Positions 2,749 to 20,176 of a DNA stretch of 57,568 nt are shown here, piece by piece (position 1 is the stretch's first letter; each line of letters starts with the position of its first letter). A model generated the notes under the pieces. That model did not search any database and was not told the origin of the DNA. It was given only the letters and a program-made list of their open reading frames with translations. Location: NCBI GenBank assembly GCA_030835085.1, contig JAUQWQ010000190.1:1-57568 (forward strand). The letters run 5' to 3'. A program made the translations under genes and the position numbers. Source of the DNA: Ignavibacteria bacterium (GTDB lineage: Bacteria; Bacteroidota; Ignavibacteria; Tepidaquicellales; OLB5).

Positions 2749-2765
2749 TTGCTTCAGGTATTTAA

Positions 2766-3113: not shown

Positions 3114-3151
3114 ATTAATAATATCCCTTCATATACTTATACCAAACAGTA

Positions 3152-3180
3152 CAAATATAGCATTTATCCCGTAATCTAAA
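3152..3180 (-). promoter_or_regulatory. Candidate Bacteroidota-type promoter for hypABF
   Basis: On the minus strand, a perfect TATATTTG (-7 class TAnnTTTG) is preceded 17 bases upstream by TTTA, one base off the -33 element TTTG. Initiation would fall about 30 bases before hypA. It sits in the longest gap of the hydrogenase run, so the maturation genes may have their own transcript in addition to read-through. Confidence 0.45.
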
Positions 3181-3233
3181 TATGATTTATCTTAGGAAAG
3201 CAGAAATTGATTTGAATTGTAAATTCCTGTATA

Positions 3234-3737
3234 TTAGGATGTTAGCTCATAGTTTTTTGATGATATTACCATCTTCCACTCATTCACAATATCTTTCACT
3301 TTAGTAACGAGGACCGGAATTTTACTTTCAATTTCGGGTGAGAGCCCCTGTCTTATGATGAAGGGATCTTCAATTTCCATAACCAGTATTCTTACTTCAT
3401 CCGGAAAGTCCAGTTCCAGTTTTTTTGCAAGCCCGATAATTTCAGGCAACCCTGCATAATGAGGTGAGCTTGTCAGCCTGCATGAGAGTTCTTCAACGGT
3501 AAGCTCCCTTATAAGTCCGGGTTTATGAGTTGAAAGTATTGTATCAATGATCACTACTTTATCGTATCCTTCAAGCAGGTCAAGCAGCATGAATCCGGCA
3601 GAGGCGACCTCGAAAATATCGATCTTACTGCCGAATTCATTTCTTAATACTTTTGCTGCTGCCAGCGCTGCACCATCATCACCCATTATATCATTACCAA
3701 GGGCAAGAACCATTATCCTGTTTTGCATTGTCTTCAT
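3234..3737 (-). CDS. Hydrogenase maturation protease, probably for the Mvh-type large subunit
   Basis: The 167-residue protein belongs to the HyaD/HycI/FrcD endopeptidase family, which removes the C-terminal tail of the large subunit after nickel insertion. Family marks are VLALGNDIMGDDGAALAAA near the N-terminus, with the nickel-sensing acidic residue in GDDG, an acidic IDTILS strand near residue 75, and the SPHYAGLPE histidine region. It lies 40 bases downstream of the Mvh large subunit, so its target is inferred to be that protein. A second, divergent protease follows the 3b large subunit. Confidence 0.9.
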   Translation of the reverse strand: MKTMQNRIMVLALGNDIMGDDGAALAAAKVLRNEFGSKIDIFEVASAGFMLLDLLEGYDKVVIIDTILSTHKPGLIRELTVEELSCRLTSSPHYAGLPEIIGLAKKLELDFPDEVRILVMEIEDPFIIRQGLSPEIESKIPVLVTKVKDIVNEWKMVISSKNYELTS

Positions 3738-3777
3738 CTTAAAATGTTCATCATTTATAATTTCAAAATGAAAATAT

Positions 3778-5301
3778 TCATCTTGAAATTGATTGCAGCA
3801 ATTGTTTTTGTTTATCGTAAATATTTATAACTATTGGCACTGTTCCGGGCAGTGAGTGCGTTGCACACCCGTTACACGGGTCATATGCCCTGAAAGCCAT
3901 TTCGATCATGTTTAACAGTCCATCATCAGCCTTGCCTTCGTGAATTAGGTCTTTGGCAGCTTTATCTATACTCATTGCGATCCTTGCTGAATTATTCTGC
4001 GTAGCCACAATAAGATTTACTTTCGTTAATATTCCTCTTTCATCTGTTTCAAAATGATGGATAAGTGTTCCCCTGGGAGCTTCAACAACACCAACTCCAA
4101 GCTTTGGAACTGCTGTTGGAAGTGTCCTGATATTTTCGCCGGTGATTTCAGGGTCATTTACCAGCTCAACTATTTTTTCGGCTGCCTGAAGCATTTCGAC
4201 TACCCTTGCCCAGTGATTGGCAAGTGTATGATGAACGGGTTTGGCTCCAAGTATCTTAAAGTATTCTTCATAGGCTTTCTGTGATTCTTCCGTTGCCATA
4301 CCGGCAGAAGCATTAAGCCTTGCAAGCGGTGCAACTGCATACACACTGGTATTCGCATCTTCAACATAGCCGTTCCACCCAAGTTTCTTCAGGTAATTGA
4401 ACTTTACATAGCTCCATGGTTCAACACGCTCAGCAATATGCTCCAGGTAATCCTTAATTTCAAATTTTACAAATTCCTTACCATCAGGATCAACAACCCT
4501 AAGCTTTCCGTCATAAAAATTTACCCGGTTGTTTTCATCAACCATTCCCATATAATATGTACGGTGAGTGTAAGCATCAGATGTTATCAGTTCAACGTAG
4601 TTATCGTTCTTAAGAACAATATCCTTAAATACCTGCAATGTGAACCTTGCGAATTCCAGAGCTTCCTTAGCGGTTTCTTTGAATTCAGGTAGGTCGGCAG
4701 GATCGAGACCTTTTGAAACACCACCCGGGAGTCCGAATACAGGATGAATAACTTTACCGCCAAGATAGTTAATAATATTCCGAATCTTACGCCTCATATC
4801 AATTACGCGCTTGCCGGTCTCCAGTCCAACTTTCTCGATAACGCCAAGAATATTCCTTTTGCTTTTATCTGCTGTTGGTCCCACTATGAAATCGGGTCCG
4901 CCCAGCACATAAACATGCAGAGCATGATCTTCAAGCATAAACGCATTGTAGATCAGTTCCCTTAATTTGCGGGCTGTGGGAGGCGGTTCAATGCTGTACA
5001 GGCTATCAAGCGCCTTGGTTGCAGCCATATGATGCGCGGTTGGACACACGCCGCAAATGCGGCTTGTTATCTGGGGCATCTCTTCTGCGGGCCTGCCAAG
5101 ACAGAACGTTTCAAATCCGCGAATTTCCGGTATCTGGTAATATGCATGTTCAACTTCACCTTTTTCATCAAGCAGGATATCTATTTTTCCATGTCCTTCA
5201 AGCCTTGTAATAGGATCAATTGTTATCCTGCGGGTTTTCATGTATGAATTATCAGCCTTTGTTAAGCCTTCATTCCATTTTTCCTTAATTAAAGTTTCCA
5301 T
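3778..5301 (-). CDS. mvhA: NiFe hydrogenase large subunit, Mvh type (group 3c-like)
   Basis: This is the catalytic subunit that binds the NiFe(CN)2CO centre and splits or forms H2. It has 507 residues. The N-terminal nickel motif is RICGVCPTAHH and the C-terminal one is DPCNGCATH, giving the four cysteine ligands. The tail after the final His (SLPGTVPIV and onward, 28 residues in all) is expected to be cleaved by the downstream protease. The start codon overlaps the mvhG stop by one base (TAATG), so translation is probably coupled. The group 3c assignment rests on the adjacent MvhD and HdrABC genes, not on tree placement. Confidence 0.93.
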   Translation of the reverse strand: METLIKEKWNEGLTKADNSYMKTRRITIDPITRLEGHGKIDILLDEKGEVEHAYYQIPEIRGFETFCLGRPAEEMPQITSRICGVCPTAHHMAATKALDSLYSIEPPPTARKLRELIYNAFMLEDHALHVYVLGGPDFIVGPTADKSKRNILGVIEKVGLETGKRVIDMRRKIRNIINYLGGKVIHPVFGLPGGVSKGLDPADLPEFKETAKEALEFARFTLQVFKDIVLKNDNYVELITSDAYTHRTYYMGMVDENNRVNFYDGKLRVVDPDGKEFVKFEIKDYLEHIAERVEPWSYVKFNYLKKLGWNGYVEDANTSVYAVAPLARLNASAGMATEESQKAYEEYFKILGAKPVHHTLANHWARVVEMLQAAEKIVELVNDPEITGENIRTLPTAVPKLGVGVVEAPRGTLIHHFETDERGILTKVNLIVATQNNSARIAMSIDKAAKDLIHEGKADDGLLNMIEMAFRAYDPCNGCATHSLPGTVPIVINIYDKQKQLLQSISR

Positions 5302-6275
5302 TACACATCCTCCGTGATTTTTTTTCTGAGAAGAGAAGTGGCAAGTCCGTACCTGTAGAAAGTACCAACAGGGTCAGGAATGCCATCGAGAATTTTATCA
5401 ATCCCTGTTTCATCATTTTCAGAAATATTTGAGCAAAGCGAAGAAAGCATCTTCGCCCCCTGGTCTCTTACCCTTGATGTCGGTCCAAAGCATCCGCTGC
5501 AGGGCATATTGCCGCTGATGCATAATGCTTCGCATCCCGCACGGGTTGATGGACCCATACAAACCACACCCTGCGACAGCAGGCACTTGGTTTTGTCAAT
5601 AAGTATTTCATGCGGCCTGTAGAAGTGAGTGAAAGAAAGGTCAGAAGGTTTTGATTCCTTACGCGGACACTCTTCACACAATGCTTCATCAGGTGAAAGC
5701 ACTGTTCCTTTCGGGGGAAATTCACCAGAGAGCAGTGTTAAAACTGCCTGCTTTAAAAGCTTTGGTGTTGGCGGACAGCCCGGTAAATAGTAATCAACAT
5801 CAATTACCTGGTCAAGCGTGCGCACAAGATTCCGTATTTCAGGCAGAGTTACATTTTGTGAATTATGTTTAAAGCTTAACATTGGTCTCGTTTTTTCCGG
5901 GTTCACCACAGAAGGCGCTTCCTGGTACATATATTCCATAATTTGTGAGCGTGTGAATTCATTGGCAAGAGAAGGAATTCCTCCCATATGTGCGCACGAA
6001 CCGTAAGCAATAACTACTTTACTTTTCCTTCTTATCAGGCGCGCCATTTCTTCCTGCTCTGATGTACGGATAGCTCCGTTTATCATTGCCGCGAAAATGG
6101 AGCCGTCTTCCATTGCCTCAACATCATTCTTTTTAAAATCCATAGCAACAGGCCAGAAAATAATATCCACAGCACCTGCTACCATTAAGATATCTTCGGC
6201 AAGATCAACAACTGATTCTTCACAGCCTCCGCAGGAGGCGCACCAGTAAAACGCAAGTTTAGGTTTATCAGACAT
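5301..6275 (-). CDS. mvhG: NiFe hydrogenase small subunit, Mvh type
   Basis: This is the electron-transfer subunit, predicted to carry three iron-sulfur clusters from the NiFe site towards MvhD. The 324 residues contain WCASCGGCEE at the N-terminus, YGSCAH and PGCPPTP for the proximal cluster, and later CEECPR, CMGPSTRAGC and CSGCFGP for the other two. There is no twin-arginine signal peptide, so the enzyme is cytoplasmic. A strong GGGAGGAG site precedes the ATG, which overlaps the mvhD gene by eight bases. Confidence 0.93.
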   Translation of the reverse strand: MSDKPKLAFYWCASCGGCEESVVDLAEDILMVAGAVDIIFWPVAMDFKKNDVEAMEDGSIFAAMINGAIRTSEQEEMARLIRRKSKVVIAYGSCAHMGGIPSLANEFTRSQIMEYMYQEAPSVVNPEKTRPMLSFKHNSQNVTLPEIRNLVRTLDQVIDVDYYLPGCPPTPKLLKQAVLTLLSGEFPPKGTVLSPDEALCEECPRKESKPSDLSFTHFYRPHEILIDKTKCLLSQGVVCMGPSTRAGCEALCISGNMPCSGCFGPTSRVRDQGAKMLSSLCSNISENDETGIDKILDGIPDPVGTFYRYGLATSLLRKKITEDV

Positions 6276-6771
6276 GACTTAACTCCTCCCTGGCGGTTAA
6301 CGGTTCTGAGTGTTCTTCACTTATTTCCTTCAATTCTTCATCCAGAATATTTATCTGTTTAGGAATAGAAAGAGGACCCAGAACTTTAAGTTTTTCAACC
6401 ATATCATTAATTACTGTTTTAACTTTTTCACCTTCTGAAGCTGATATCCATTCAAGCCTGAATCTTTCATCATCAATACCCAGCGAGTGCAGCATACGTT
6501 TCAGCAGCCGGAACCTCCTGAGCATTTTATAATTGCCTTCGGAATAATGACAATCACCGGGGTGACAGCCGCCAATGAGTACACCATCAGCCCCGCTTGC
6601 AAATGCCTGCAATATGAACTGCGGGTCAACCCTGCCGGAACACATTATTCTTATCACCTTAACATTAGGGGCATATTTAAGACGGGAAACGCCGGCAAGA
6701 TCCGAAGCTGTGTATGTACACCAGTTACAGAAGAATGCCACTATTTTGGGTTCATAATTTTTATCAGGCAT
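6268..6771 (-). CDS. mvhD: MvhD, 2Fe-2S adaptor between hydrogenase and heterodisulfide reductase
   Basis: MvhD links the Mvh hydrogenase to HdrA and passes electrons through a 2Fe-2S cluster. The sequence shows the family pattern VAFFCNWCTYTASDLAG, RIMCSGRVDP and GGCHPGDCHY. The ORF track starts at 6807, but I place the start at the internal ATG (MPDKNYEPK). It has GGAGG seven bases upstream, and the longer version would overlap hdrA by 44 bases. The chosen start overlaps hdrA by eight bases. The mature length is about 167 residues, slightly longer than typical MvhD (130-150) because of a C-terminal extension. Confidence 0.92.
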   Translation of the reverse strand: MPDKNYEPKIVAFFCNWCTYTASDLAGVSRLKYAPNVKVIRIMCSGRVDPQFILQAFASGADGVLIGGCHPGDCHYSEGNYKMLRRFRLLKRMLHSLGIDDERFRLEWISASEGEKVKTVINDMVEKLKVLGPLSIPKQINILDEELKEISEEHSEPLTAREELSHV

Positions 6772-8797
6772 GTTCAGCCTCCATTTCTTCGAGTTCAATA
6801 TCTGCAAATTTTAACAGCCCGTCAATTTCACTGAATATCTGATCATCTTCGAACAGATTCTGAATAATTGAACCTGACGGACAGGCCGCAACACATGTAC
6901 CGCAGCCTTTACAAAGTGCCTCGTTAATAACAGCTTTTTGAGTACCATCATTAAACGATATTGCCGAATAAGGACAGATCGGGATGCATGATTTGCATCC
7001 GGAACAGAATTTTTCATTGATACTTGCAGTATTAGGCTCAAGCTCAATACTGCCTGCACTGATAAGTGACAGTACTTCAGCGGCAGCGGCGCCTGCCTGC
7101 GCAACTGAGTCAGGGATATCTTTGGGTCCCTGGCATGCGCCGGCAATGAAAATACCATCTGTAAATGTGCTTACCGGTGCAAGTTTCGGGTGTCTTTCCA
7201 GGAACCAGCCTTCGTTTGAGCATGATATATTGAACATACGTCTTATATCACCTGCATCAACCCGGGGTTCAAGTCCAACAGCCAAAACAACCATATCAAC
7301 CGGTACCCTTCGTACAACGCCAATCAGCGTATCTTCAACCCTGATAGTTAGCTTGTTCTCTTCTTCGGGAACCAAAGCCCAGTCAGTCACTTCAGATACA
7401 CGGCCGCGCACAAAATGAACGCCTTCTGTCATAAGCTTATCGTAGAATTCTTCGTAACCTTTGCCCGGTGTGCGCATATCAATGTAGAAATTATAAACCT
7501 GCGCACCTGTATGTTCTTTGATCAGATGGGCAAGTTTTAATGAATACATGCAGCATACCTTTGAGCACCATTTATGCGCTTTCTGGTCCCGGGAGCCGAC
7601 ACAATGAATAATGCCAACTGATTTTGGTTTTTTACCGTCCTTTGTTACAACTTCTCCTGCTGTAGGACCTGATGCGTTAACAAGCCTTTCAACTTCAAGA
7701 GAAGTATAAACATTCGGATACTTGCCGTAACCATACTGCGGTGAAAGCTCGGCATCGTATGTTTTGAAACCGGTTGTCAGAATTACAGTGCCAACATTAA
7801 TTTCTTTGTACTCAGGAACCTGTTTCAGGTCAATAGCTTTCCTGTCGCATGATTCAATACAGGTTTTTTTGCACCTGTGGCTCTTGAAGTCAATGCATGT
7901 TTCAGGATCGAACAATACAACCTGCGGTGTTGCCTGCGGAAAAGGAATATATATAGGTTTGCGTTTGCTTAATTTCTGGTTGAATTCATCGGGATACTTT
8001 GCTTCTTTATATATGCAGGCATCAATGCACTCCATACAACCCACACACAGTTCTTCTATAACATAACGCGGTTTGCGTTTAATGTTAACTTTGTAATTGC
8101 CAACAAATCCTTCTACTTTTTCAACTTCCGAATATGTCCACAGCGTTATGTTCGGATGCGATTTAACTGCGGACATTTTTGGTGTTAATATACATGCTGC
8201 ACAGTCAAGCGTAGGGAATGTTTTATCGAACATCGCCATATGCCCGCCAATGGTAGGCTCACGCTCAACCAGGTAAACATGCTTTCCTGCATTCGCAATT
8301 GTAAGCGCTGCAGTAATACCTGAAATACCGCCGCCTACTATCAATACATCCGGATTTACCGGAACTGATTTCTTTTCAAGAGGTTTATGGAAAAATACCC
8401 TTTGAATTGCAGCACGGGTTAAAGCCTTGGCTTTTTGTGTTGCAGAAAGTTTATCAGTATGAACCCAGGACACACTTTCACGAATATTCACCATATGGAA
8501 ATAATAAGGATTAAGTCCTGCTTTTTCAGCAGCTACACGGAAGGTATGCTCATGTAAAAGCGGTGAGCAGGATGCGACAACTATCCTGTTAAGACCGAGC
8601 TCTTTGATATCTTTCTGGATCAGTTCCTGCCCGGGATCCGAACACATATATTTATAATCACGCGATACAACTACACCCGGCAGGGTTGAAGCGAATTTCT
8701 GAACCTCTTCAACATCCACCATAGAGGCGATATTATGTCCGCAATGACAGACATAAAATCCGATCTTAGGGGTGCCATTACCGTTAGAATTAAACAT
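6764..8797 (-). CDS. hdrA: HdrA, flavin-bifurcating subunit of heterodisulfide reductase complex
   Basis: HdrA carries the FAD that splits the electrons of H2 between ferredoxin and the HdrB disulfide site in methanogen-type complexes. The 677-residue protein has the HdrA-specific N-terminal domain (YVCHCGHNIA), a Rossmann FAD motif VGGGISGITAA near residue 152, and the TLDCAACILTP segment. It has a central ferredoxin motif CVGCMECIDAC, the MRTPGKGYEEFY segment, and two C-terminal 4Fe-4S motifs, CSGCKSCIPICP and CKGCGTCVAACP. This is a full-length, intact HdrA. It sits between hdrB and mvhD with eight-base overlaps on both sides. Confidence 0.95.
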   Translation of the reverse strand: MFNSNGNGTPKIGFYVCHCGHNIASMVDVEEVQKFASTLPGVVVSRDYKYMCSDPGQELIQKDIKELGLNRIVVASCSPLLHEHTFRVAAEKAGLNPYYFHMVNIRESVSWVHTDKLSATQKAKALTRAAIQRVFFHKPLEKKSVPVNPDVLIVGGGISGITAALTIANAGKHVYLVEREPTIGGHMAMFDKTFPTLDCAACILTPKMSAVKSHPNITLWTYSEVEKVEGFVGNYKVNIKRKPRYVIEELCVGCMECIDACIYKEAKYPDEFNQKLSKRKPIYIPFPQATPQVVLFDPETCIDFKSHRCKKTCIESCDRKAIDLKQVPEYKEINVGTVILTTGFKTYDAELSPQYGYGKYPNVYTSLEVERLVNASGPTAGEVVTKDGKKPKSVGIIHCVGSRDQKAHKWCSKVCCMYSLKLAHLIKEHTGAQVYNFYIDMRTPGKGYEEFYDKLMTEGVHFVRGRVSEVTDWALVPEEENKLTIRVEDTLIGVVRRVPVDMVVLAVGLEPRVDAGDIRRMFNISCSNEGWFLERHPKLAPVSTFTDGIFIAGACQGPKDIPDSVAQAGAAAAEVLSLISAGSIELEPNTASINEKFCSGCKSCIPICPYSAISFNDGTQKAVINEALCKGCGTCVAACPSGSIIQNLFEDDQIFSEIDGLLKFADIELEEMEAEHA

Positions 8798-9692
8798 ATA
8801 CCGGCTTACCTCCTTCCATTATCCTGAATAGATTTTCAGGCTTAGCAAACAGCCGGTTTATACCAAGTTTCTTTGGTTCCAAACCAAGTGCCAGCCCGAG
8901 TAGCTGAGTAAAATAAATTACATCAATTTTGGTATCGGTTTTGAATTTTTTATCGATATTCGTCTGGTAGCACTCAAGGTTAAACTGGCATAAAGAACAT
9001 GCTGTAGTAACAACATCAGCTCTTCTTTTCTTTGCTTCATGTAAAATGATATAACTTAAGGGAAGGGCAACTTCCTGAATAGTACCGGTTAAGCTCGCAC
9101 CGCAGCAGCGAGTTTTCATTGTCCAGTCAACAACTTCAGCACCGGCTGCTTTAAACAGCTTATCCATTGTAACCGGATTTCTCTGGTCATCAAAAGTTGA
9201 GTACGGTCTCACGGTCTGGCATCCGTAATAAGATGCGACCCTGATACCCTTTAGAGGTTTGGTTATCCGTTTTGCTATTTCCTGCTCACCTATATCATTT
9301 ATAAAAACATCGATCGGGTGTCGTATTTTGGCTTTTGCTTTGTAATCCAGCCCTGATTCCTTAAGTGCGGCTTTAATAACAGCCATATCTTCAGGGTTAT
9401 CTTCAAGGAATTTCTGGGTTTTTAGAAGTATCATATAACATGCGCTGCATGGTGCTACTATGTTAACTTCTTCCTCATCTTTGAATTGCTGTTCGGCAAG
9501 CGCTATATTCCTTGCGGCAAGCACAAACGCCTTTTTTTCGTCAACAGCCATATATGCAGTCGCGCCGCAACAATTCCAGTCTTTGAGCTCTTCATATTCT
9601 ATACCAAGCGCATCAAATACCGCAAGCAGTGATTCTTCGTACAGTTTACCCGTGCTTTTTAAAGAACAGCCGGGATAATAGATATACTTCAT
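8790..9692 (-). CDS. hdrB: HdrB, noncubane iron-sulfur (CCG) subunit
   Basis: HdrB is the disulfide-reducing subunit in methanogens, with two noncubane 4Fe-4S clusters. The 300-residue protein has two CCG domains. The first is YPGCSLKS ... WNCCGATAYM ... CSACYM; the second is YYGCQTVRP ... TRCCGASLTG ... CSLCQFN. All cluster cysteines seem present, so catalytic capacity is probably kept. AAAGGAGG precedes the ATG, which overlaps the hdrC stop by four bases. In a bacterium presumably lacking coenzyme M and B, the real substrate is unknown. Confidence 0.94.
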   Translation of the reverse strand: MKYIYYPGCSLKSTGKLYEESLLAVFDALGIEYEELKDWNCCGATAYMAVDEKKAFVLAARNIALAEQQFKDEEEVNIVAPCSACYMILLKTQKFLEDNPEDMAVIKAALKESGLDYKAKAKIRHPIDVFINDIGEQEIAKRITKPLKGIRVASYYGCQTVRPYSTFDDQRNPVTMDKLFKAAGAEVVDWTMKTRCCGASLTGTIQEVALPLSYIILHEAKKRRADVVTTACSLCQFNLECYQTNIDKKFKTDTKIDVIYFTQLLGLALGLEPKKLGINRLFAKPENLFRIMEGGKPVYV

Positions 9693-10375
9693 ACGGCAGA
9701 TGCCTCCTTTAAAGCCGGGGAATTAACTTCAGCTTTATAAATTGACTTGTCTTCTACGCTTTGCAGAAGTTTTTTCAAAGCCTTTTTATCTTTTATCCTT
9801 TCGGTTTTAAGGGATATTCTGCCTCTAATCCACAGTTTAAATCCCAATGCCATGTTCTTAAACAACATGAATGGATTTGTTTTCAGATACATTTTAACCA
9901 GCAAGGGACCTTCACTGTTCCTTCCGTTATTTAAAACCTGGTTAAAGAAATTGTTTGCTAAAATTGAGGCAGGGGATTTTTTAGGATAATAATTACCCAG
10001 TATGGATTCTCTTTTCAGAGCATACATAACATCGGTAATTTTTATTCCTTTGGGGCACTCAACAGTACATGCATAACATGAGGCGCATAACCAAACTGTT
10101 GAGGATGTTAATACTTCTTCTTTGAATCCTTCACGCACCATCTGGATTATTTTCCTTGGAGTATAATCCATATAATGGCTAACCGGACATGCAGCACTGC
10201 AGGTGCCGCACTGAATACAGCCATATAGTTTCTCACCGTGAGCTGATTTAGCTATCTTATCTCTGAAACTCTTATCAAGTTCGCTTTCATACTTGATCCT
10301 TCTGCGTATCTCAACAATATCTTTAGCTGCATTATCCAGAGCAAAGGATTCAGCAAATACGGATTTTTTATCCAT
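9689..10375 (-). CDS. hdrC: HdrC, ferredoxin-like subunit of Hdr complex
   Basis: HdrC passes electrons from HdrA to HdrB through two 4Fe-4S clusters. The 228 residues contain CIQCGTCSAACPVSHYMDYT near residue 52 and CASCYACTVECPKGI near residue 97. A longer, basic C-terminal half without cofactor motifs follows. The N-terminal 40 residues are charged. AAAGGAG lies ten bases before the ATG. It follows the 3b hydrogenase maturation protease by 32 bases and overlaps hdrB by four, which joins the two hydrogenase modules in one transcript. Confidence 0.93.
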   Translation of the reverse strand: MDKKSVFAESFALDNAAKDIVEIRRRIKYESELDKSFRDKIAKSAHGEKLYGCIQCGTCSAACPVSHYMDYTPRKIIQMVREGFKEEVLTSSTVWLCASCYACTVECPKGIKITDVMYALKRESILGNYYPKKSPASILANNFFNQVLNNGRNSEGPLLVKMYLKTNPFMLFKNMALGFKLWIRGRISLKTERIKDKKALKKLLQSVEDKSIYKAEVNSPALKEASAV

Positions 10376-10407
10376 AAAGCAGAATTCTCCTTTGATTTTA
10401 GTTTTTC

Positions 10408-10860
10408 CTAGATAATCTTACTTACTAAATGTACGATATTATTAACAGCAATTTCAACCTCGGCAGTTATTGTTGTTCCTGATTCAAATGAAGAAGCTTC
10501 TATTCCATAAATTGTTAGTTCTTGCGGGAGATTACCAAGTGAGGCTGAAAGATATATAGCTTGCGGTACGCTGAACAGATGAGTGGAGAACTTAAAAAGT
10601 TCTGACGGCAAAATTGAGCCTGGAGCGGAAAATTCGTGGATCGTTCCCGGTTTTGAACCTGATTGTACTGCATCAATCAGTATCACCTTTTTTCTTCCGG
10701 TCCATTTATTAATTAATTCGGCGCCATCGCCGTTATTTTCTATAACTTCAATTCCTTTCAGATCGTAATTTCTGAGTTTTCTTGCGGCAAGAAGTCCCGC
10801 GGCATCATCACCGCGGTATTCATTGCCGATTCCTATTATCAGTATATCAGAATTATTCAT
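10408..10860 (-). CDS. Hydrogenase maturation protease, probably for the group 3b large subunit
   Basis: The 150-residue endopeptidase belongs to the HycI/HyaD family. It has the opening ILIIGIGNEYRGDDAAGLLAA, where the GDD acidic residue senses nickel, and LIDAVQSGSKPGTIHEF in the middle. The histidine is in FSTHLFSVPQA. It lies 19 bases after the 3b large subunit gene. The protein differs clearly from the protease at 3234-3737, consistent with one dedicated protease per large subunit. Confidence 0.9.
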   Translation of the reverse strand: MNNSDILIIGIGNEYRGDDAAGLLAARKLRNYDLKGIEVIENNGDGAELINKWTGRKKVILIDAVQSGSKPGTIHEFSAPGSILPSELFKFSTHLFSVPQAIYLSASLGNLPQELTIYGIEASSFESGTTITAEVEIAVNNIVHLVSKII

Positions 10861-10879
10861 TTTTAATTCAGCAGGATAT

Positions 10880-12169
10880 TTACTCCCTTTGAATATCTAA
10901 TTTCAAAAAATGTGTTGCGCAGGAAATGCACGGGTCATAATTTCTTATTGCCTGTTCACATTTCCAGACAAGGTCCTTTTCAGGCAGATTGATCAGTGTA
11001 GGAACAAAATTCCTGAGGTCATTTTCAATAGTCTTCTGGTTTTGTGAGGTTGGCGGAACAATTTTCGCATCCTCTATCAAACCTTCTGAATTAACCCTGT
11101 ACCTGTGATATATCATACCTCTTGGAGCTTCAGTGCATGCATATCCGGTCGCTTCAGATGGTTCAACATCAACTGCAGGGCTATCGGGCATCCTGTAATT
11201 ATCAATTATCCGCAAAGCTTCTTCACAGGAATATATCGTTTCAATTCCTCTTACAATAATGCTCTTAAACGGATTGTAACATTCCTTACCCAGGCCGGTT
11301 TCTACAGCGATCTCTTTACATAACTGTGTTAACTTATCATAATTCAGGTTATATCTCGCTATTGGTCCGACAAGATAGTTGCCTCTTTCACGTATCCTAG
11401 AATGCAGGGCATGTGAGTGTTCTACATGTTCTTCCCTGAAATGGAAATCATATTGTTCGGGAGAAATATCAATTCCTTTATTCGAAACTATTCTGCCTTC
11501 ATTGAACGGGTATTCATCAGGGTGAACAAGCGAAACGCATTCATAATCCTGGAAAAATTCCGGGAACGGAAGTGTTGCGGCGAACTTCGCAGTTTCAATT
11601 GCAGCATCCCGTGCCCAGCAAATATCATCATGCATTTTCATAAGTTCTTTTCTTGTCGGCACCTTGTAGAATCCGCCCACTTTAACATTAATAGGGTGAA
11701 TTTCCCTGCCGCCTACAAGATTCATAATATCATTACCAATCTTCTTCAAACGGAGCGCTTTTTTTACAATATCCGGGTGATCTTTTGCCATCTGCACAAC
11801 ATCGTCATATCCAAGAAAATCAGGTGCGTGCAGCATGTATAAGTGCAAAGTGTGGCTTTCTATCCATTCGCCGCAATATAAAAGTCTTCTCAGCTCTCTT
11901 ATTTCCGGCGGGATGGTAACATCAAAAGCGTTTTCCATTGCGTGAACTGCGCTCATCTGGTATGCAACGGGGCATATACCGCAGATCCTTGCAGTAATAT
12001 CCGGAGCTTCGCTGTAGGGTCTTCCTCTTAAGAACGCTTCGAAGAAGCGGGGCGGTTCAAAAATTTCAAGCCTTACATCAGAAACTTCGTTATTTTTTAT
12101 TTTCAGATACAGCGCTCCTTCACCTTCTACCCGCGCTATATAATCCACTTTTATAGTCTTATTTTTCAT
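10880..12169 (-). CDS. hydA: NiFe hydrogenase large (alpha) subunit, group 3b / sulfhydrogenase type
   Basis: This is the catalytic subunit of a cytoplasmic, bidirectional NAD(P)-linked hydrogenase. The nickel motifs are [11 protein letters not shown] near the N-terminus and DPCISCATH at the C-terminus. Only FLKLDIQRE remains after the predicted protease cut. The ORF track begins at 12208, but [17 protein letters not shown] is the normal N-terminus, so I use the ATG at 12169. That overlaps hydD by 11 bases rather than 50. The gene order B-(cNMP)-G-D-A matches the archaeal sulfhydrogenase operon hydBGDA apart from the insert. Confidence 0.92.
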
Positions 12170-12935
12170 TTGCTTCACTTTCTTTTCTAAACGCTTCGGC
12201 ATATGCATTAAAGCTGCGGAATGCAGTCATGATATCAAATTTTGTACTTCCCATTTCTTTGAATTGTTTAGCAAGCGCTGCAGTATTTGCTGAATCCATT
12301 GGACCGTAGCATCCAAAACAGCCGCGGTTATAGGAAGGGCAAAGTGCATTACAGCCTGTTTGGGTTACCGGACCCATACACTGAATATTGTGAGCAGTCA
12401 TAACGCAAACATTTCCTTTAAGTTTACAGTCAATACAAACGCTGTAAGCAGGTATGTTGGGTTTCCTGCTGTTCAAAAACGCATTCAATACTTCGATAAG
12501 CTGGTATTTGTTAATAGGGCAGCCCCTGAGTTCAAAATCGACATGTACAAAAGCATTAACCGGCAGTGATCTGTCAAGGGTTGAAATATATTCTGGTGAT
12601 GCATAAACAATTTTTGTGAATTCCTGAGTATCTTTCCAGTTCCTTAAAGCCTGTATTCCGCCTGCAGTAGCACAGGCACCAATAGTAATAAGTATCTTAC
12701 AGTCTTTTCTTATCTGTCTTATTTCTTCAACGTTTCTTGGTGTAGTAATACTTCCTTCAACCAAACCAATATCATAGGGTCCTTTTAACATCTTGCTGGA
12801 TGCTTCGGGAAAGTAAGCAAGCTCCACACCTCCCAGTACATCAAGCAGTTCGTCTTCAGCATCAAGCAGTGAAAGCTGACATCCGTCACATGAAGACATT
12901 TTAAAAACAGCCAATTTCGGTTTCTTATTTGCCAT
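12159..12935 (-). CDS. hydD: NiFe hydrogenase small (delta) subunit, group 3b
   Basis: The 258-residue electron-transfer subunit holds iron-sulfur clusters. It has [14 protein letters not shown] at the N-terminus, [12 protein letters not shown], and [10 protein letters not shown]. Later it has [26 protein letters not shown] and CFGCYGP. It has no signal peptide, in line with a soluble enzyme. It follows hydG after four bases and overlaps hydA. Confidence 0.93.
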
Positions 12936-12939
12936 TATA

Positions 12940-13797
12940 TTAAAGCTCCTTTATCTCAAAAATATCAGTTACATTGCTAAAACTGAAAACCGGACCATCT
13001 TTGCAAACAAAACTGGGTCCATACTGGCAGTGCCCGCAAAAGCCCAGCGCGCATTTCATATTTCTTTCCAGCGAAACATATATCTCTTTTTCTGCAACTC
13101 CGTTTTTAATAAGTTCATCAACAGCATATTTCATCATGATCTCGGGTCCGCATACCATAGCTCTGGTTTTTTCGGGGTTAAGCTCAACATAGTTAAGCAG
13201 GGTTGTAACCACTCCAACGTGTCCGCGCCATGTACTATCTGCTCTATCGACAGTAACTTCTATCTGAATATCATATTTTTTGCGCCAGCTTTCAAGCTCA
13301 ACCGGATAAAGAATATCCCTTGGAGTCCTTGCGCCATAAAGCAGAACGAATTTACCGTATTGTTTGCGGTGTTTTAAGATATGGTAAATAGAAGGTCTTA
13401 ACGGTGCAAGACCAATACCGCCGACAATTATACAAATATCTTTTCCTTTAGCTTCTTCAAGCGGCCAGCTTGAACCAAACGGACCGCGTAAGCCGATTAT
13501 ATCGCCTTTTTTTAGTTTCGAAAGTACATTAGTAACATATCCGACTTTATGTATAGTATGCAGCAGGGAATTTTTTTTAGATGAATCTGAACTGATCGAG
13601 ATCGCAGACTCACCAACGCCAAAAGCATAAAGCATATTAAACTGCCCCGGCTTAAAGCGGAATTCTCTTTTTTCATCGCTATCATAAACAAGCTCTATTG
13701 TGAACACATCCTCTGTTTCCCAAAAGATCTTTTTTACCTTTACTGCTTCAGGTGTCATCGGATCTAACTTCATTAAACCTGATTTATTATTGTCCAT
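12940..13797 (-). CDS. hydG: Hydrogenase gamma subunit, FAD/NAD(P)-binding reductase, group 3b
   Basis: This subunit connects the hydrogenase to NAD(P). The 285 residues form a ferredoxin-reductase-like fold. An FAD domain carries [11 protein letters not shown] and the [12 protein letters not shown] segment. A nucleotide-binding domain follows ([40 protein letters not shown]). A C-terminal 2Fe-2S-like cysteine set is in [23 protein letters not shown]. It lies 12 bases after the cNMP-fold gene and 4 before hydD. Whether it prefers NAD or NADP cannot be read from the sequence. Confidence 0.92.
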
Positions 13798-13809
13798 TTT
13801 CCTGAATAA

Positions 13810-14268
13810 TTATACGCGTTTATATACATCAAGCAGCTGCATTCTTGTTGATTGCAGACGCTGCTCTAAAATATGTGAAAATCTTTTTAGCATTTCATAA
13901 CCCATTTTGGGATCATCTTCACATTTGTTCCTCAAACACTCGCCATCAAGAGCAATTGCCCTTACTTCTTCCAGAGCGTGAGCTTCGAAATGCCATTTAT
14001 ACGGAGATACTATCCATGACCAGCCGAGTATCTGGCCCGGTCCGACAGTTAAAATCCTGAGATTACCTTTATCTCTTCCGTTGATCTCTAAAGCCACCTT
14101 TCCGGTTCTTATAAGATAGAACTTTTCAGCTTTATCGCCTTCTCTAAAGATAATTTCATCTTCGTGGTAAGCAACATTTGAAGCACAACCTGTAATCTGC
14201 TTCAGGTAGTTTTCATCAAGGTCCTTCATGAATGGATGATTTCTTAAAATTCCTGAAAGGTCTTCCAT
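13810..14268 (-). CDS. Cyclic-nucleotide-binding-fold protein without DNA-binding domain, in the hydrogenase operon
   Basis: The 152-residue protein is a single cNMP-binding beta-roll. It shows FMKDLDENYLKQITG, IIFREGDKAEKFYLIRTGKVAL, GPGQILGWSWIVSPYKWHF and a final helix. It lacks a helix-turn-helix, so it is not a Crp/Fnr regulator. The phosphate-binding cassette normally has a Glu-Arg pair (GE...PRAA). Here the segment reads GWSWIVSPYKWHFEA, so ordinary cAMP binding is doubtful. It is embedded between hydB and hydG with 18- and 12-base gaps. It may be a regulatory or structural subunit of the 3b hydrogenase; that role is inferred from position only. Confidence 0.85.
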   Translation of the reverse strand: MEDLSGILRNHPFMKDLDENYLKQITGCASNVAYHEDEIIFREGDKAEKFYLIRTGKVALEINGRDKGNLRILTVGPGQILGWSWIVSPYKWHFEAHALEEVRAIALDGECLRNKCEDDPKMGYEMLKRFSHILEQRLQSTRMQLLDVYKRV

Positions 14269-14286
14269 GTTTTTCTTTTTATTGAT

Positions 14287-15399
14287 TTATGATTTTGTTT
14301 TTGGTGAATTTCTAATTTTTTCAACTTCTTTTGTAATGTCAATCCCGACCGGACACCACGAAATACATCTTCCGCATCCGACACAGCCTGAGGTACCAAA
14401 CTGATCGATCCATGAAGCCAGCTTATGGGTCATCCACTGGCGATACCTGGCTTTGGGCGAGGTTCTGAAGTTACCGCCTGCAACCTTGGAATAATCCAGG
14501 CTGAAACATGAATCCCATCTTCTCCATCTTTCTGTATGGTCACCGGTAAGATCAGTAGTATCTTCCATAGTGTGGCAGAAGCATGTAGGGCAAACTAGTG
14601 TGCAGTTTGCGCATGAAAGACACCGTGTGGCAATTTCTGCCCAGTTTGGGTGATCATGGTTGTGATATAAAAGCTCTTTTATACCTGCAGTATTCATTGA
14701 GCGCTTCATTCCAAGCTCAGCAGATGCAACGCGGGTATCAGCGGCTTTTACCTGCTCATCGGTTGCAATTTCTGCATCCAGCTTCGCAGTAAGTTCTTTT
14801 CCTTTTTCTGTTGACTCATCAAGCACAAAGTAATGTCCATCTTTACCAATAACTTCGGTAAGAGAAATATCAAAACCGTCTTTTGCTTTGGGACCTGATT
14901 TCATCGAAACACAGAAACACGTAGATGCCGCCTGGGTACAGTTTACGGATATAATAAAAATATTGTTCCTGACATTATTGTAATAACTATCAGTATACAG
15001 ATCATTGTTAAATACTTTATCCTGTATAAAAATTGCTTTTAGCTCGCATGACCTAACCCCAAGAAAAGCGTACTTTGGAACCGGTTCATCTGAATGCTTA
15101 ATTGTAAAACCTCTGCCGTCGCGGCCGGCTTCCCAAAGTTTCATTCTCTGCGGGAAAAGGAATTTCTTCCATGATTGAGGTCCGACAACATATCCAAAAA
15201 GCGATTCATCATTGCGTTTTACAAGCCTGTATGACCCTGCTTCCTGTTCATCTCCCCATCCAGCAGGCAGATCATTAATGCTTTCTATTTCATCGTATAC
15301 AATTGCACCATCTTTAACGATTGGTCCAATAACAGTATAGCCGTCTTTTTTGAGAATCCCGATAATTTTATCTAAATTACTTTTGTCTATTGTTTTCAT
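14287..15399 (-). CDS. hydB: Hydrogenase beta subunit, 4Fe-4S protein, group 3b
   Basis: This is the iron-sulfur electron-transfer subunit, related to anaerobic sulfite reductase subunit A. The 370 residues have CLSCANCTLVCPTCFC near residue 265 and CVGCGRCISWCPVGIDI near residue 343. A large N-terminal domain contains CFCVSMKSGP. The start overlaps the queF stop as ATGA, so translation is likely coupled. It is the first structural hydrogenase gene in the transcript. Confidence 0.92.
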   Translation of the reverse strand: MKTIDKSNLDKIIGILKKDGYTVIGPIVKDGAIVYDEIESINDLPAGWGDEQEAGSYRLVKRNDESLFGYVVGPQSWKKFLFPQRMKLWEAGRDGRGFTIKHSDEPVPKYAFLGVRSCELKAIFIQDKVFNNDLYTDSYYNNVRNNIFIISVNCTQAASTCFCVSMKSGPKAKDGFDISLTEVIGKDGHYFVLDESTEKGKELTAKLDAEIATDEQVKAADTRVASAELGMKRSMNTAGIKELLYHNHDHPNWAEIATRCLSCANCTLVCPTCFCHTMEDTTDLTGDHTERWRRWDSCFSLDYSKVAGGNFRTSPKARYRQWMTHKLASWIDQFGTSGCVGCGRCISWCPVGIDITKEVEKIRNSPKTKS

Positions 15400-15791
15400 T
15401 GCTTCATTTTTCCATGTACAGCAGTAATGGTTGAATTAAGTCCGCCCCTTGGGGTAAATTCGCCCTTTACTTCCATCCATTTTGGCTTTAATAAACCAAC
15501 CAGGTCATCCAAGATCCTGTTGATCACATTTTCGTAAAATATTCCTTCATTTCGAAACGATTGTAAGTAGAATTTGAGAGATTTGAGCTCGATACATTTT
15601 TTGTTGGCTATGTAAGAAATAGTGATCACGCCAAAATCCGGCTGACCTGTTTTGGGACAAACAGAGGTAAATTCATTGGCACGGTGAATAATAAGGTAGT
15701 TTCTTTGTGGAAAGGAATTATCGAAAGCCTCTAAAAGGCCTGTTTTAGCTGAATCGGTTTTAACGGGATTGAACTTTTTCATAGTTTGCAT
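15396..15791 (-). CDS. queF: QueF, NADPH-dependent preQ0 reductase
   Basis: QueF reduces preQ0 to preQ1 in queuosine biosynthesis for tRNA. The 131-residue protein is the short, single-domain type. It has the catalytic cysteine in FTSVCPKTGQPDFG, the QueF signature ELKSLKFYL, and the substrate-binding segment FRNEGIFYENVI. Two starts are possible: 15791 (MQTMKK) or 15782 (MKKFNP). AAAGGA lies only three bases before the first and about twelve before the second, so the choice is open. It overlaps hydB by four bases and heads the hydrogenase run. The functional reason is unknown; shared use of NADPH is a conjecture. Confidence 0.93.
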   Translation of the reverse strand: MQTMKKFNPVKTDSAKTGLLEAFDNSFPQRNYLIIHRANEFTSVCPKTGQPDFGVITISYIANKKCIELKSLKFYLQSFRNEGIFYENVINRILDDLVGLLKPKWMEVKGEFTPRGGLNSTITAVHGKMKQ

Positions 15792-15975
15792 GTTCCTTTA
15801 ATAATTTTACTTGATTTACAGCAAAATTATCAAAATTTGCTCAAAAAACTATCCATCTTACACTTCAAAAATATCATTATTATTATCAATTTATTATGAC
15901 GCAAATCATAGGTTTTATACCCAAAAAGTTGTTATTTTTAAAAAAAGTTTGTTTCCAAAATTAATAAATAATGCC

Positions 15976-18018
15976 ATGAAATCCAGTTTGTACATTCTAG
16001 CTTTTACACTCTTGCTATCAGGTACAATCTTTTCCCAGATGCCTCTAAAGAAAGGCAGCGAACTATGTTCAGAAAGGAAAATGTCTTTACCGCAATCATT
16101 TTATGATAACGACTCTCCCAACTCTCCAAAGCATACTTTTGATGTGCTTGATTATAAAATGAATCTCGATATAAGAAGTTGTTTTATTTCTCCATATCCC
16201 AAATCATTTACAGGAAGTATAATTGTTAAATTCAGGATCGATACTGCATTAAGTTCAATTAATCTGAATGCTGTAAATACTTCAATTGTTGTTGCATCAG
16301 TTGGCTTAAGCGGTGTATCTTTTACACATTCAGCAAACATACTGACGGTAAATTTGAACAGGCAGTATAATCCGGGTGAAGTGACAGAAGTACTTATCAA
16401 TTACTCACACAACAATGTTAGTGATGGAGCGATCTATACAGGTAACGGCGGCTTTTTTACAGATGCAGAACCTGAAGGCGCCAGAAAGTGGTTCCCCTGC
16501 TGGGATAAACCTTCTGATAAAGCGACTGTTGATATTACACTAAAGGTTCCGGCAAATGTTAAAATAGGCTCTAATGGCAGACTCAATGATTCAACAGTTA
16601 CAGGTGATACATTATACTATCACTGGATAAGCCGTGACCCCGTTACAACATACTTAACTGTTTTAACAGGAAAAGTCAATTACAATTTAAATATTATTTA
16701 CTGGCCAAAAATTTCAAATCCATCAGAATTAGTACCTATAAGATTTTATTCGAACTCAGGTGAAAACCCTGCATCAATGATTTCAATGTTCCCGAATATG
16801 ATAACACACTTTTCACAGAAATTCGGTGAGCATGGTTTTGAAAAGAACGGATTTACAACAGCGCCCGCATCCGGATTCACATGGGGCGGCATGGAAAACC
16901 AGACTTTGACAACTTTATGCCCCAACTGCTGGAGCGAAAACCTGATGTCTCATGAATTTGCACATCAGTGGTTCGGAGATATGATATCACCGGCAACATG
17001 GGCAGATATCTGGCTTAATGAAGGTTTCGCAACATACAGCGAAGCTTTGTGGTATGAAAAAACCGGAGGCTATTCATCTTATAAAAGTGATATCAACAGC
17101 GATGCAAGCGGATACTTAAGCAGTAACCCGGGATGGCCGATCTACAATCCGGATTGGGCAATTAACACACCACCATCCGGGACACTCTTCAATACTGCAA
17201 TAACCTATAATAAAGGCGCTTGCGTTCTGCATATGCTGAGATATACTGTTGGAGATTCCGCAACATTTTTCAATATCCTTCGTGCTTATGCAACTGATAC
17301 AGCCAACTTTAAATATAAAAGTGCAGCAACAGATGATTTCGCGGCCAAAATAAGTCAAACATACGGTCAGGATCTTACATGGTTCATTAATCAATGGGTA
17401 AAGCAGCCAAATCATCCTGTTTATGCTAATATATACCAGTTCAATAATAACGGCAATGGCACATGGAATGCAGGTTTCCAGGCAATACAAACACAATCAA
17501 ACACACCGTTCCACAGGATGCCGTTAACACTCAGGTTCACATTTGCATCCGGACCTGATACAACTTTCAGGGTTGATAATACCGCTAACAATCAGATTTG
17601 GATATGGACATTCAACCGCCAGCCGACTGCATTTGCATTTGATCCGAATAATGACATCGTTCTTAAAACGGGCTCAACAGTTGCCGGAACAGTCCCCGGA
17701 GTAACAGGGATATCATCAACCAACAATGAGCTGCCAAGCGTTTTTGCGCTGATGCAGAACTATCCAAACCCGTTCAATCCTGTAACAAATATCAGGTTTG
17801 ATATACCAAAACGTTCGAACGTTACCTTGATGGTTTACGATGTAACAGGAAAAGCATTAAGCGAAATTTACAACGGCTTAAGCGATCCTGGTAAATACAC
17901 CGCGGATTTTGACGCATCCAGGCTTGCATCAGGCGTATACTACTACCTTCTTACTGCAAGTTCAGAAAGTGGTGAAATAATGTATAAAGATGTAAAGAAA
18001 ATGGTTCTGGTTAAATAA
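15976..18018 (+). CDS. Secreted M1-family metallo-aminopeptidase with T9SS sorting domain (copy 1)
   Basis: This is a predicted zinc aminopeptidase exported through the Sec and type IX systems. The start is the ATG giving KSSLYILAFTLLLSGTIFSQ, a clear signal peptide; the longer ORF-track start at 15811 has no such sequence. The M1 marks are GGMENQT, then HEFAHQWFGD at about residue 326, and NEGFATY. The last 80 residues are the T9SS domain, opening NYPNPFNPVTNIRFDIPK and ending VKKMVLVK. The protein is highly similar along its full length to the next gene, so the pair is a tandem duplication. A strong terminator follows. Confidence 0.92.
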   Translation: MKSSLYILAFTLLLSGTIFSQMPLKKGSELCSERKMSLPQSFYDNDSPNSPKHTFDVLDYKMNLDIRSCFISPYPKSFTGSIIVKFRIDTALSSINLNAVNTSIVVASVGLSGVSFTHSANILTVNLNRQYNPGEVTEVLINYSHNNVSDGAIYTGNGGFFTDAEPEGARKWFPCWDKPSDKATVDITLKVPANVKIGSNGRLNDSTVTGDTLYYHWISRDPVTTYLTVLTGKVNYNLNIIYWPKISNPSELVPIRFYSNSGENPASMISMFPNMITHFSQKFGEHGFEKNGFTTAPASGFTWGGMENQTLTTLCPNCWSENLMSHEFAHQWFGDMISPATWADIWLNEGFATYSEALWYEKTGGYSSYKSDINSDASGYLSSNPGWPIYNPDWAINTPPSGTLFNTAITYNKGACVLHMLRYTVGDSATFFNILRAYATDTANFKYKSAATDDFAAKISQTYGQDLTWFINQWVKQPNHPVYANIYQFNNNGNGTWNAGFQAIQTQSNTPFHRMPLTLRFTFASGPDTTFRVDNTANNQIWIWTFNRQPTAFAFDPNNDIVLKTGSTVAGTVPGVTGISSTNNELPSVFALMQNYPNPFNPVTNIRFDIPKRSNVTLMVYDVTGKALSEIYNGLSDPGKYTADFDASRLASGVYYYLLTASSESGEIMYKDVKKMVLVK

Positions 18019-18042
18019 AATCAGCAAATTAGTTTTTTTGTC

Positions 18043-18074
18043 AAAGGCGTTCAGTTTTCTGAACGCCTTTTTTT
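18043..18074 (+). terminator. Rho-independent terminator after M1 peptidase copy 1
   Basis: A 12-bp perfect stem AAAGGCGTTCAG / CTGAACGCCTTT with a TTTT loop is followed by a run of T. It lies 25 bases after the stop codon. Its GGCGTTCA stem recurs at 20216 and 25387. Confidence 0.92.
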
Positions 18075-18133
18075 GTGCGCAAAAAAGAGTTATTTTAAGT
18101 AAAATCCATCTATAAGAATTGAATAAAGACAAT

Positions 18134-20176
18134 ATGAAATTCAAAGTATACTTTTTTCTGGCAGCCCTGTTCATCCCGCTTACATTGTTCTCGCAAATTG
18201 AAAATAAAAAAGGCAGTGACTTGTGTTCGGAAAGAAAACGCTCAATGACGAACATTTTTTTCGAAGGCGATTCGCCTAATTCACCAAAACACTCTTATGA
18301 TGTGCTGGATTATAAACTAAACCTGGATATAAGAAACTGCTTCATAACACCTTTTCCAAGATCATTTACAGGAAGTGTAATTGTTAAATTCAGGATTGAT
18401 ACAGCACTCAGCTCAATAAATCTGAACGCGATCAATACATCCATAGTGGTAAGCTCAGTAGGTTTAAGCGGAGTATCGTTTACTCACACGGGTAATATTC
18501 TGAACGTAGTTCTAAACCGGGTTTATAACCCCGGGGAAGTTACCGAGGTACTTGTAAACTACTCACACAATAATGTAGTTGATGGCGCAATATATACAGG
18601 TAATGGAGGGTTTTTCACGGATGCACCTCCGGAAGGAGCCCGCAAATGGTTTCCATGCTGGGATAAACCTTCCGATAAAGCTACTGTGGATATAACATTA
18701 AAGGTACCGGCAAATGTAAAGATCGGATCAAACGGGAGACTGAATGATTCAACTGTTACAGGTGATACTTTATATTATCACTGGATAAGCCGTGACCCGG
18801 TAGCTACGTACCTTGTTGTATTGACCGGAAAAGTCAATTATAACCTGAATATTGTTTACTGGCCAAAGCTTTCAAATCCTACAGACAGCATTCCGCTAAG
18901 ATTCTATTTTAATACCGGAGAAAATCCGGCAGCTATGCAAAATGCCGTTGTGAACATGACAACTTATTTTTCACAGAAGTTTGGTGAACACGGATTTGAA
19001 AAGAACGGTTTTGCGACAGCACCTGCACCGGGATTCAACTGGGCGGGAATGGAAAACCAGACTCTAACAACTTTGTGCCCCAATTGCTGGAATGAAAACC
19101 TGGTTTCACATGAGTTTGCCCATCAATGGTTTGGTGACCTGGTAACCTGCGCAACATGGGCAGATGTATGGCTGAATGAAGGTTTTGCAACTTATTGTGA
19201 ATCATTATGGCTGGAAAATACGGGCGGGTACACTGCGTATAAGAATGATATAAACATCACGGCAGCAGGTTACCTGAACAGTAACCCCGGATGGCCGATC
19301 TATAATCCGCAGTGGGCTATAGTAACACCTGATATTAACACACTATATAATACCGCCATTACATATAATAAAGGCGCTTGTGTTCTGCACATGTTAAGAT
19401 ATGTCCTTAATGATACTAATGTTTTCTTTAACTGCCTTCGCGGTTATGCTATGGATACAACTGATTTCAAATACAAAACAGCAACCACGGATGATTTTAC
19501 TGCAAAAATAAGCCAAATTGCAGGACAGGATCTCTCATGGTTTATGGACCAGTGGGTTAAGCAGCCAAATCATCCTGTTTATGCAAATCTATACCAGTTT
19601 GCTGATCTTGGAAACGGCAGCTGGAACGTCGGCTTCCAGGCTAAACAGACACAAACGAACACTCCGTTCCACAGAATGCCGCTGACTATCAGAATTACAT
19701 TTGCATCGGGACCGGATACAACTTTCAGGATAGATAATACTTCCAATAATCAAATATGGATATGGACATTCAACAGGCAGCCAAGTACGTTTGCATTTGA
19801 CCCGAACAACGACATAGTTTTAAAAACCGGCACAACAGCTGCGGGGGTTGTACCCGGTACAATTGGTATATCAGTAAACACTACCGAACTGCCAAAGGTA
19901 TTTGCATTAAAGCAGAACTATCCGAACCCGTTTAACCCGGTTACAAATATTAAATTTGATATTCCGAAGCGCTCAAATGTAACATTGAAAGTATTTGACG
20001 TAACTGGCAGAATAGTGACCGAAATATATAACGGACTAAGTGAACCCGGTGTTTATACAGCCGATTTTGACGCAGTAGATCTTGCATCAGGGATCTATTA
20101 TTATGAAATTGCAGCCACAACAGAATCACGCAATATGTTATTTAGAGATGTAAAGAAGATGGTGCTTTTGAAATAA
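18134..20176 (+). CDS. Secreted M1-family metallo-aminopeptidase with T9SS sorting domain (copy 2)
   Basis: This is a paralogue of the preceding gene with the same domain order. A signal peptide (KFKVYFFLAALFIPLTLFSQ) is followed by the M1 core with AGMENQT, HEFAHQWFGD at about residue 326 and NEGFATY. The T9SS domain opens NYPNPFNPVTNIKFDIPK. I choose the ATG at 18134; the track's TTG at 18119 adds only five residues. By eye, identity with copy 1 is roughly three-quarters, lower in the signal peptide and around residues 250-290. All catalytic residues are kept, so both copies should be active. The gap between the two copies holds a terminator, so each is probably transcribed separately. Confidence 0.92.
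   Translation: MKFKVYFFLAALFIPLTLFSQIENKKGSDLCSERKRSMTNIFFEGDSPNSPKHSYDVLDYKLNLDIRNCFITPFPRSFTGSVIVKFRIDTALSSINLNAINTSIVVSSVGLSGVSFTHTGNILNVVLNRVYNPGEVTEVLVNYSHNNVVDGAIYTGNGGFFTDAPPEGARKWFPCWDKPSDKATVDITLKVPANVKIGSNGRLNDSTVTGDTLYYHWISRDPVATYLVVLTGKVNYNLNIVYWPKLSNPTDSIPLRFYFNTGENPAAMQNAVVNMTTYFSQKFGEHGFEKNGFATAPAPGFNWAGMENQTLTTLCPNCWNENLVSHEFAHQWFGDLVTCATWADVWLNEGFATYCESLWLENTGGYTAYKNDINITAAGYLNSNPGWPIYNPQWAIVTPDINTLYNTAITYNKGACVLHMLRYVLNDTNVFFNCLRGYAMDTTDFKYKTATTDDFTAKISQIAGQDLSWFMDQWVKQPNHPVYANLYQFADLGNGSWNVGFQAKQTQTNTPFHRMPLTIRITFASGPDTTFRIDNTSNNQIWIWTFNRQPSTFAFDPNNDIVLKTGTTAAGVVPGTIGISVNTTELPKVFALKQNYPNPFNPVTNIKFDIPKRSNVTLKVFDVTGRIVTEIYNGLSEPGVYTADFDAVDLASGIYYYEIAATTESRNMLFRDVKKMVLLK

Follow-up and report, generated by a model that had tools for sequence, protein, structure and literature searches.

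What does a lone cyclic-nucleotide-binding (cNMP) fold do inside a group 3b hydrogenase operon when the Glu and Arg of its phosphate-binding cassette are gone? The question is raised by a 152-residue protein, called GWSW-type here after its motif, which is encoded in the window (the whole stretch of DNA that was analysed, 57,568 nucleotides). A sequence-only reading had drawn attention to the gene, and we followed it through its fold, its operon, its relatives in other genomes and its pocket.

The gene and its operon

The gene starts with ATG on the minus strand, and the plus-strand reading of 13810-14268 contains stops throughout. The features on which the argument draws are the following.

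13810..14268, minus strand: GWSW-type lone cNMP-fold protein, 152 aa (Pfam, HMMER, AlphaFold2)
13819..13911, minus strand: its long C-terminal helix, residues 120-150, 31 residues (AlphaFold2 secondary structure and E. coli CRP alignment)
13975..14025, minus strand: its phosphate-binding cassette, most likely rebuilt, residues 82-98, GWSWIVSPYKWHFEAHA (gapless HMMER alignment to PKG and column counts)
14287..15399, minus strand: HydB, beta subunit, Fe-S protein (Pfam Fer4_22, NCBIfam HydB/ShyB)
14818..14829, minus strand: HydB residues 191-194, a GWSW-clade-specific insertion of 3-4 residues with His194 (alignments, HydB model)
12940..13797, minus strand: HydG, gamma subunit, FAD/NAD(P)-binding (FAD/NAD(P) domains, HydG/ShyC models)
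12159..12935, minus strand: HydD, small [NiFe] subunit (Pfam, NCBIfam)
10880..12208, minus strand: HydA, large [NiFe] subunit, group 3b type (domain models and solved-homologue match)
10408..10860, minus strand: hydrogenase maturation protease (domain models)

The operon runs in the order QueF, HydB, cNMP, HydG, HydD, HydA, maturation protease, and domain models together with the closest solved homologues identify HydB-HydG-HydD-HydA, with a [NiFe] large subunit that carries the motifs RICGICP and DPCISCATH, as a group 3b operon. The placement is as tight as had been claimed: 18 bp separate the gene from the stop of HydB, and 12 bp from the start of HydG.

The sole Pfam domain in the protein is cNMP_binding (PF00027), found at residues 33-118 with E = 4.8e-14 and 52.5 bits against a cut-off of 27.5 bits; Pfam finds no HTH in the 152 residues, and the chain terminates with the C-helix. 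This bears out the earlier claims that the fold stands alone without a DNA-binding domain and that the protein is not a transcription factor. The AlphaFold2 model (mean pLDDT 89.6) contains the CNB barrel, and Foldseek ranks 3mdp, MtbCRP and GlxR at the top, so that both the Pfam score and the matches to CRP-type structures place the protein in the PF00027 superfamily. The C-terminal helix is likely a dimer helix. The observation of a lone cNMP fold inside a 3b hydrogenase operon is confirmed.

On the same strand (window 2104-15791, minus) the 3b operon is continued by HdrC, HdrB, HdrA-like and MvhD/FlpD-like proteins, then by small and large [NiFe] subunits of a group 3c-like type, another protease, HypA and HypB; the 3b hydrogenase adjoins a likely electron-bifurcating Hdr-Mvh module. 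At the other end the QueF (preQ1 synthase) gene, 15396-15791 minus, overlaps the HydB start, an order repeated in a relative (L049). Divergent from the hydrogenase operon, at 15811-20176 on the plus strand, lie two tandem, near-alike large proteins which by eye have the look of M1-type peptidases with a C-terminal sorting-type tail.

Distribution, losses and the HydB insertion

A scan of GTDB genome contigs gave at least 580 places that encode GWSW-type relatives, and the best 80 were fetched. The comparison of neighbourhoods proposed in the sequence-only reading finds co-occurrence with the hydrogenase: among the best 80 of at least 580 loci, HydB lies directly 5' in all 80 and HydG directly 3' in 79, the one exception (L090) being a contig edge. 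In about 25 of these best 80 of at least 580 the GWSW-type start overlaps the HydB stop, and none of them has a natural fusion to HydB or HydG. Two Chloroflexota loci (L291, L292) considered as HydB-cNMP fusions were rejected, being separate ORFs in the order cNMP-HydB. By their record titles, the best 80 loci belong to Ignavibacteria, Bacteroidetes, Nitrospinota, Nitrospirota, Acidobacteria, Planctomycetes, Chloroflexi, Zixibacteria, KSB1, Actinobacteria and others. The GWSW family is real and, as had been supposed, widespread.

How closely does the gene follow the hydrogenase? Among 198 genomes of the window's own phylum, a strong GWSW match occurs in 14, and the 14 genomes with a close HydA (at least 57% identity) are those very ones; genomes of this phylum with only a distant HydA (~33%, Chlorobi-like) have no GWSW gene, the slot being empty in 8 of the 8 read. 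In a phylum sample around L095 the gene accompanies a close HydA in 8 of 8 genomes, in one of which it lies 5' of HydB. The actinobacterial sample has it in 14 of 26 readable operons, absence being checked by reading the loci directly. Of 18 readable operons in the Chloroflexota sample, 16 have a cNMP gene; it occupies the GWSW slot in 9, while in 7 it is of GWS type and lies 5' of HydB. By a hand count over the samples, a cNMP gene of the wider family is present in 52 of 66 operons whose HydA reaches at least 46% identity.

The GWS-type gene 5' of HydB is seen in Chloroflexota 3b operons and L330 (L320-L323, L325-L327, L330), where HydB is without the hairpin insertion described below, and four operons of a distant 3b type (L211, L212, L328, L333; HydA 38-41%) have a GWS-type gene after HydA. 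Since such genes occupy other positions in other 3b clades, the link to the hydrogenase recurs. The claimed association with 3b hydrogenases stands by these counts (80 of 80 best loci of at least 580; among genomes whose HydA is close, 14 of 14 and 8 of 8), and is limited to one large bacterial 3b clade: Chlorobi-like operons are without the gene, and mycobacterial-type relatives have lost it.

A tree of concatenated HydB, HydG, HydD and HydA is best fitted if the in-slot gene was gained once and then lost at least twice within the clade, in mycobacterial-type operons, which branch beside a Rhodococcus that keeps the gene, and in L205, which branches beside L218. Because of this single gain and these losses we regard the GWSW-type protein as accessory; moreover, with sister clades that do without the gene, its effect must be dispensable. 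The M. smegmatis Hyd3 genes are numbered msmeg_3931-3927 with no cNMP gene among them (PMC2799521), and the R. equi hydrogenase cluster includes a cNMP gene (PMC13332983). In a tree of the cNMP proteins, which has few columns and is unsure in its deeper forks, the GWSW members form a single clade (SH-aLRT 99), and the Streptomyces-type orphans branch from within it.

Every operon with an in-slot gene has the insertion at about residues 191-194 of HydB, with His194 in 67 of 70, and the HydB model places it within the beta-hairpin E178-185/E188-195. It is absent in all lineages that never had the in-slot gene, including those with a cNMP gene elsewhere, and is retained in the secondary losers, the His being lost in mycobacterial types. 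The insertion is one evolutionary event, and it only suggests itself as a candidate docking element for the GWSW-type protein. A docking subunit sought through relaxed conservation in the loser lineages gave no clear signal.

The aromatic pocket and the orphan copies

What has become of the nucleotide pocket? The cassette reads LGWSWIVSPYKWHFEAHA, just as first described, and it is indeed without the Glu/Arg pair. In the gapless HMMER alignment of the family model to PKG, GELAILYNCTRTATV against GWSWLVPPYRWHFDA, the canonical Glu corresponds to W83 and the canonical Arg to W92; with MAFFT and E. coli CRP, whose cassette is slightly longer, the CRP Arg lands on H93, beside W92. Among 139 GWSW-clade members Trp83 and Trp85 each occur in 133, Pro89 in 134 and Trp92 in 128, and thus where a ligand-competent CNB protein has its cassette Glu and Arg, W83 and W92 are near-invariant instead. 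The GWSW motif is far beyond chance because G82, W83, S84, W85 and P89 are invariant among 67 aligned homologues from many phyla. The wider CNB family has W83 with mostly Tyr or Phe at position 92, e.g. GWSALVEPYRFTASA. In place of the short cassette helix, DSSP of the AlphaFold2 model, a prediction, gives coil at 82-90.

In the C-helix, R137-L138-x-x-T141-R142 aligns with R123-L124-x-x-T127-S128 of CRP. The adenine of cAMP is contacted by CRP T127 and S128, and the Arg and Thr of the GWSW-type helix coincide with ligand-contact positions of CRP. Binding of heme or an Fe-S cluster through His93 or the cysteines was rejected, since R, Q, E or S often stands at position 93 and the cysteines are not strictly conserved. 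Judged from sequence, the GWSW pocket is most likely a rebuilt one for something other than cAMP.

Streptomyces-type genomes carry GWSW copies away from any hydrogenase operon, and these orphan-bearing genomes have no 3b HydA at the search threshold, save one genome that has both. The earlier picture of a hydrogenase part may thus hold in the 3b operons and does not cover the orphans. Annotated orphans on Streptomyces plasmids (L128, L236-L238) have stress and two-component genes nearby; their neighbourhoods include genes for universal stress, CBS, GAF-domain, response-regulator or globin proteins. In a comparison of pocket and docking residues between 124 hydrogenase-linked and 15 orphan sequences, all 15 orphans retain W83, W85, P89, W92, R137 and R142, while H11-P12-F13, C28, C111, K115, Y124, R129 and Q144 are present in 85-94% of the linked sequences and in 0-2 of the orphans; the Fisher values for these residues are tiny and descriptive only, the orphans being related (mostly one clade). 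Some hydrogenase-linked actinobacterial members are also without the putative docking residues. Since the orphans keep the pocket residues and lose the linked ones, the pocket appears to be under selection without the hydrogenase, and this split makes pocket function and probable docking look separable.

Could the tryptophans simply fill an old pocket? A purely structural subunit would bind no ligand and would stabilise or dimerise HydBGDA or shield its flavin/Fe-S module. The replacement of both polar cassette residues by Trp, the lack of a cassette helix in the model and the strict operon slot all fit such a filler. However, a filler in a hydrogenase scaffold would not be expected to keep its pocket residues fully in orphans that lose the others, and two helix arginines are retained beside the pocket. 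We regard a structural role as possible but unlikely.

Proposed role and known systems

Instead, we propose that the GWSW protein is a dimeric accessory regulatory subunit on the 3b HydB-HydG diaphorase module which senses a non-cAMP ligand, a reading to which we give a probability of about one half. It would serve one large clade of bacterial, NAD(P)-linked 3b hydrogenases as a non-catalytic accessory subunit, a homodimer via the C-terminal helix, seated on the electron-transfer/diaphorase module of HydB and HydG. Its aromatic pocket (W83, W85, P89 and W92 with helix R137, T141 and R142) would no longer take cAMP and would bind a different small molecule, which may, if HoxI is a guide, be a pyridine or adenine nucleotide; binding would tune the activation or the direction of electron flow between H2 and NAD(P)H. 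The docking, the dimer, the ligand and its effect are what we infer, from a fold, a lost Glu/Arg pair, an operon slot, an inheritance with losses and a split conservation that come from sequence and prediction. For a regulatory subunit we count the slot, the HydA co-occurrence, the recurring link, the HydB insertion, the orphan pocket, the helix Arg/Thr and the HoxI2 precedent. Against it, the conserved tryptophans could simply be filling the pocket, and we further count the losses, the docking-residue gaps, the orphan kinship, the single-event insertion and the HoxI non-orthology. A bolder extension, tentative and in our view doubtful, would make GWSW a class of non-cyclic-nucleotide sensors in which Trp/Trp and helix Arg stand in for Glu/Arg and the ligand is a redox metabolite, an allosteric subunit of 3b hydrogenases later freed in Streptomyces as a stress or dormancy sensor.

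Is the protein simply HoxI? In C. necator HoxFUYHI2 (group 3d), HoxI is likewise a cNMP fold standing alone, its gene accompanying those of an NAD(P)-linked [NiFe] hydrogenase, and the GWSW-type gene, too, encodes such a fold inside the operon of an NAD(P)-linked hydrogenase. A true orthologue, an NADPH-binding activation subunit of the same kind as that of C. necator, fits the shared fold, similar size, lone domain and adjoining hydrogenase genes, and the name HoxI has been applied to a 3b-operon cNMP protein (PMC12319191). However, with the family model HoxI scores 35 bits, below ordinary CNB proteins (3mdp 71, GlxR 62), and it is 22% identical to the GWSW-type protein; on these two figures we reject orthology, which we judge improbable. 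Moreover, HoxI keeps the Glu (GELGF), has no GWSW, and its gene comes after HoxW in a group 3d operon. The 'HoxI' of PMC12319191 we read as an analogy, a judgement from the comparison of HoxI with GWSW and not from that protein's own sequence.

A dissociable signalling protein, acting mainly elsewhere in the cell and merely co-expressed with the hydrogenase, is favoured by the orphans near stress and two-component genes on Streptomyces plasmids, and by the OsdR sites that precede the Crp-like gene SCO0168, which adjoins a universal stress gene (PMC5069765); here SCO0168, of the predicted OsdR regulon, is assumed to be a GWSW protein, and it may be such an orphan. Yet the protein has no effector domain, and a HydB/HydG gene order kept over many phyla would be unusual for mere co-expression; we consider this reading very improbable. 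A helper that assembles or matures the cofactor subunits HydB and HydG and is missing from the finished enzyme is hardly credible: the gene does lie between two cofactor-bearing subunits, and C28, C111 and C116 are conserved in most members, but the cysteines are not invariant, sister-clade operons are without the gene, and we know of no chaperone with a cNMP fold.

Hydrogenases of group 3b are soluble H2-NAD(P)H enzymes; among solved structures, the nearest homologue of HydA and HydB is Pyrococcus furiosus sulfhydrogenase I (group 3b; 9nez, 9e15). Neither in these two structures nor in any hydrogenase complex in the PDB was a cNMP-fold chain matched by sequence, and a literature search for a paper describing the cryo-EM structure of P. 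furiosus SHI found none. Should a fifth, regulatory subunit be present in much of the bacterial branch, control and cofactor-recycling use would so far have been deduced from an incomplete enzyme. The orphans, with their split between pocket and linked residues, offer a direct mutational handle on the pocket ligand. The family had been called unexplained, and the literature search found no functional study of the GWSW-type protein, PMC12319191 and PMC13332983 mentioning a 3b-operon cNMP protein without a test; the claim has to be qualified by the HoxI precedent (PMC3702609) and by the label 'HoxI' for a 3b-operon cNMP protein (PMC12319191).

Among known proteins the best fold match is 3mdp (Gmet_1532 of Geobacter metallireducens, a solved lone CNB protein; TM 0.81), whose wider-type cassette, FGVSSLIKPYHYTSSA, places it near the W83 plus Tyr/Phe92 family, and which differs in its 25% identity and in having no GWSW. 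CRP/FNR regulators (E. coli CRP, MtbCRP, GlxR) share the cNMP fold and the long C-helix, whereas the GWSW-type protein has no HTH and has lost the cassette Glu and Arg. The closest characterised analogue is HoxI, the lone cNMP-fold subunit of the C. necator NAD-reducing hydrogenase, which is described as the site of NADPH activation, with HoxI2 sitting on the HoxFU diaphorase (PMC3702609), and which is itself accessory, since the H. pseudoflava SH is without it (PMC12809855).
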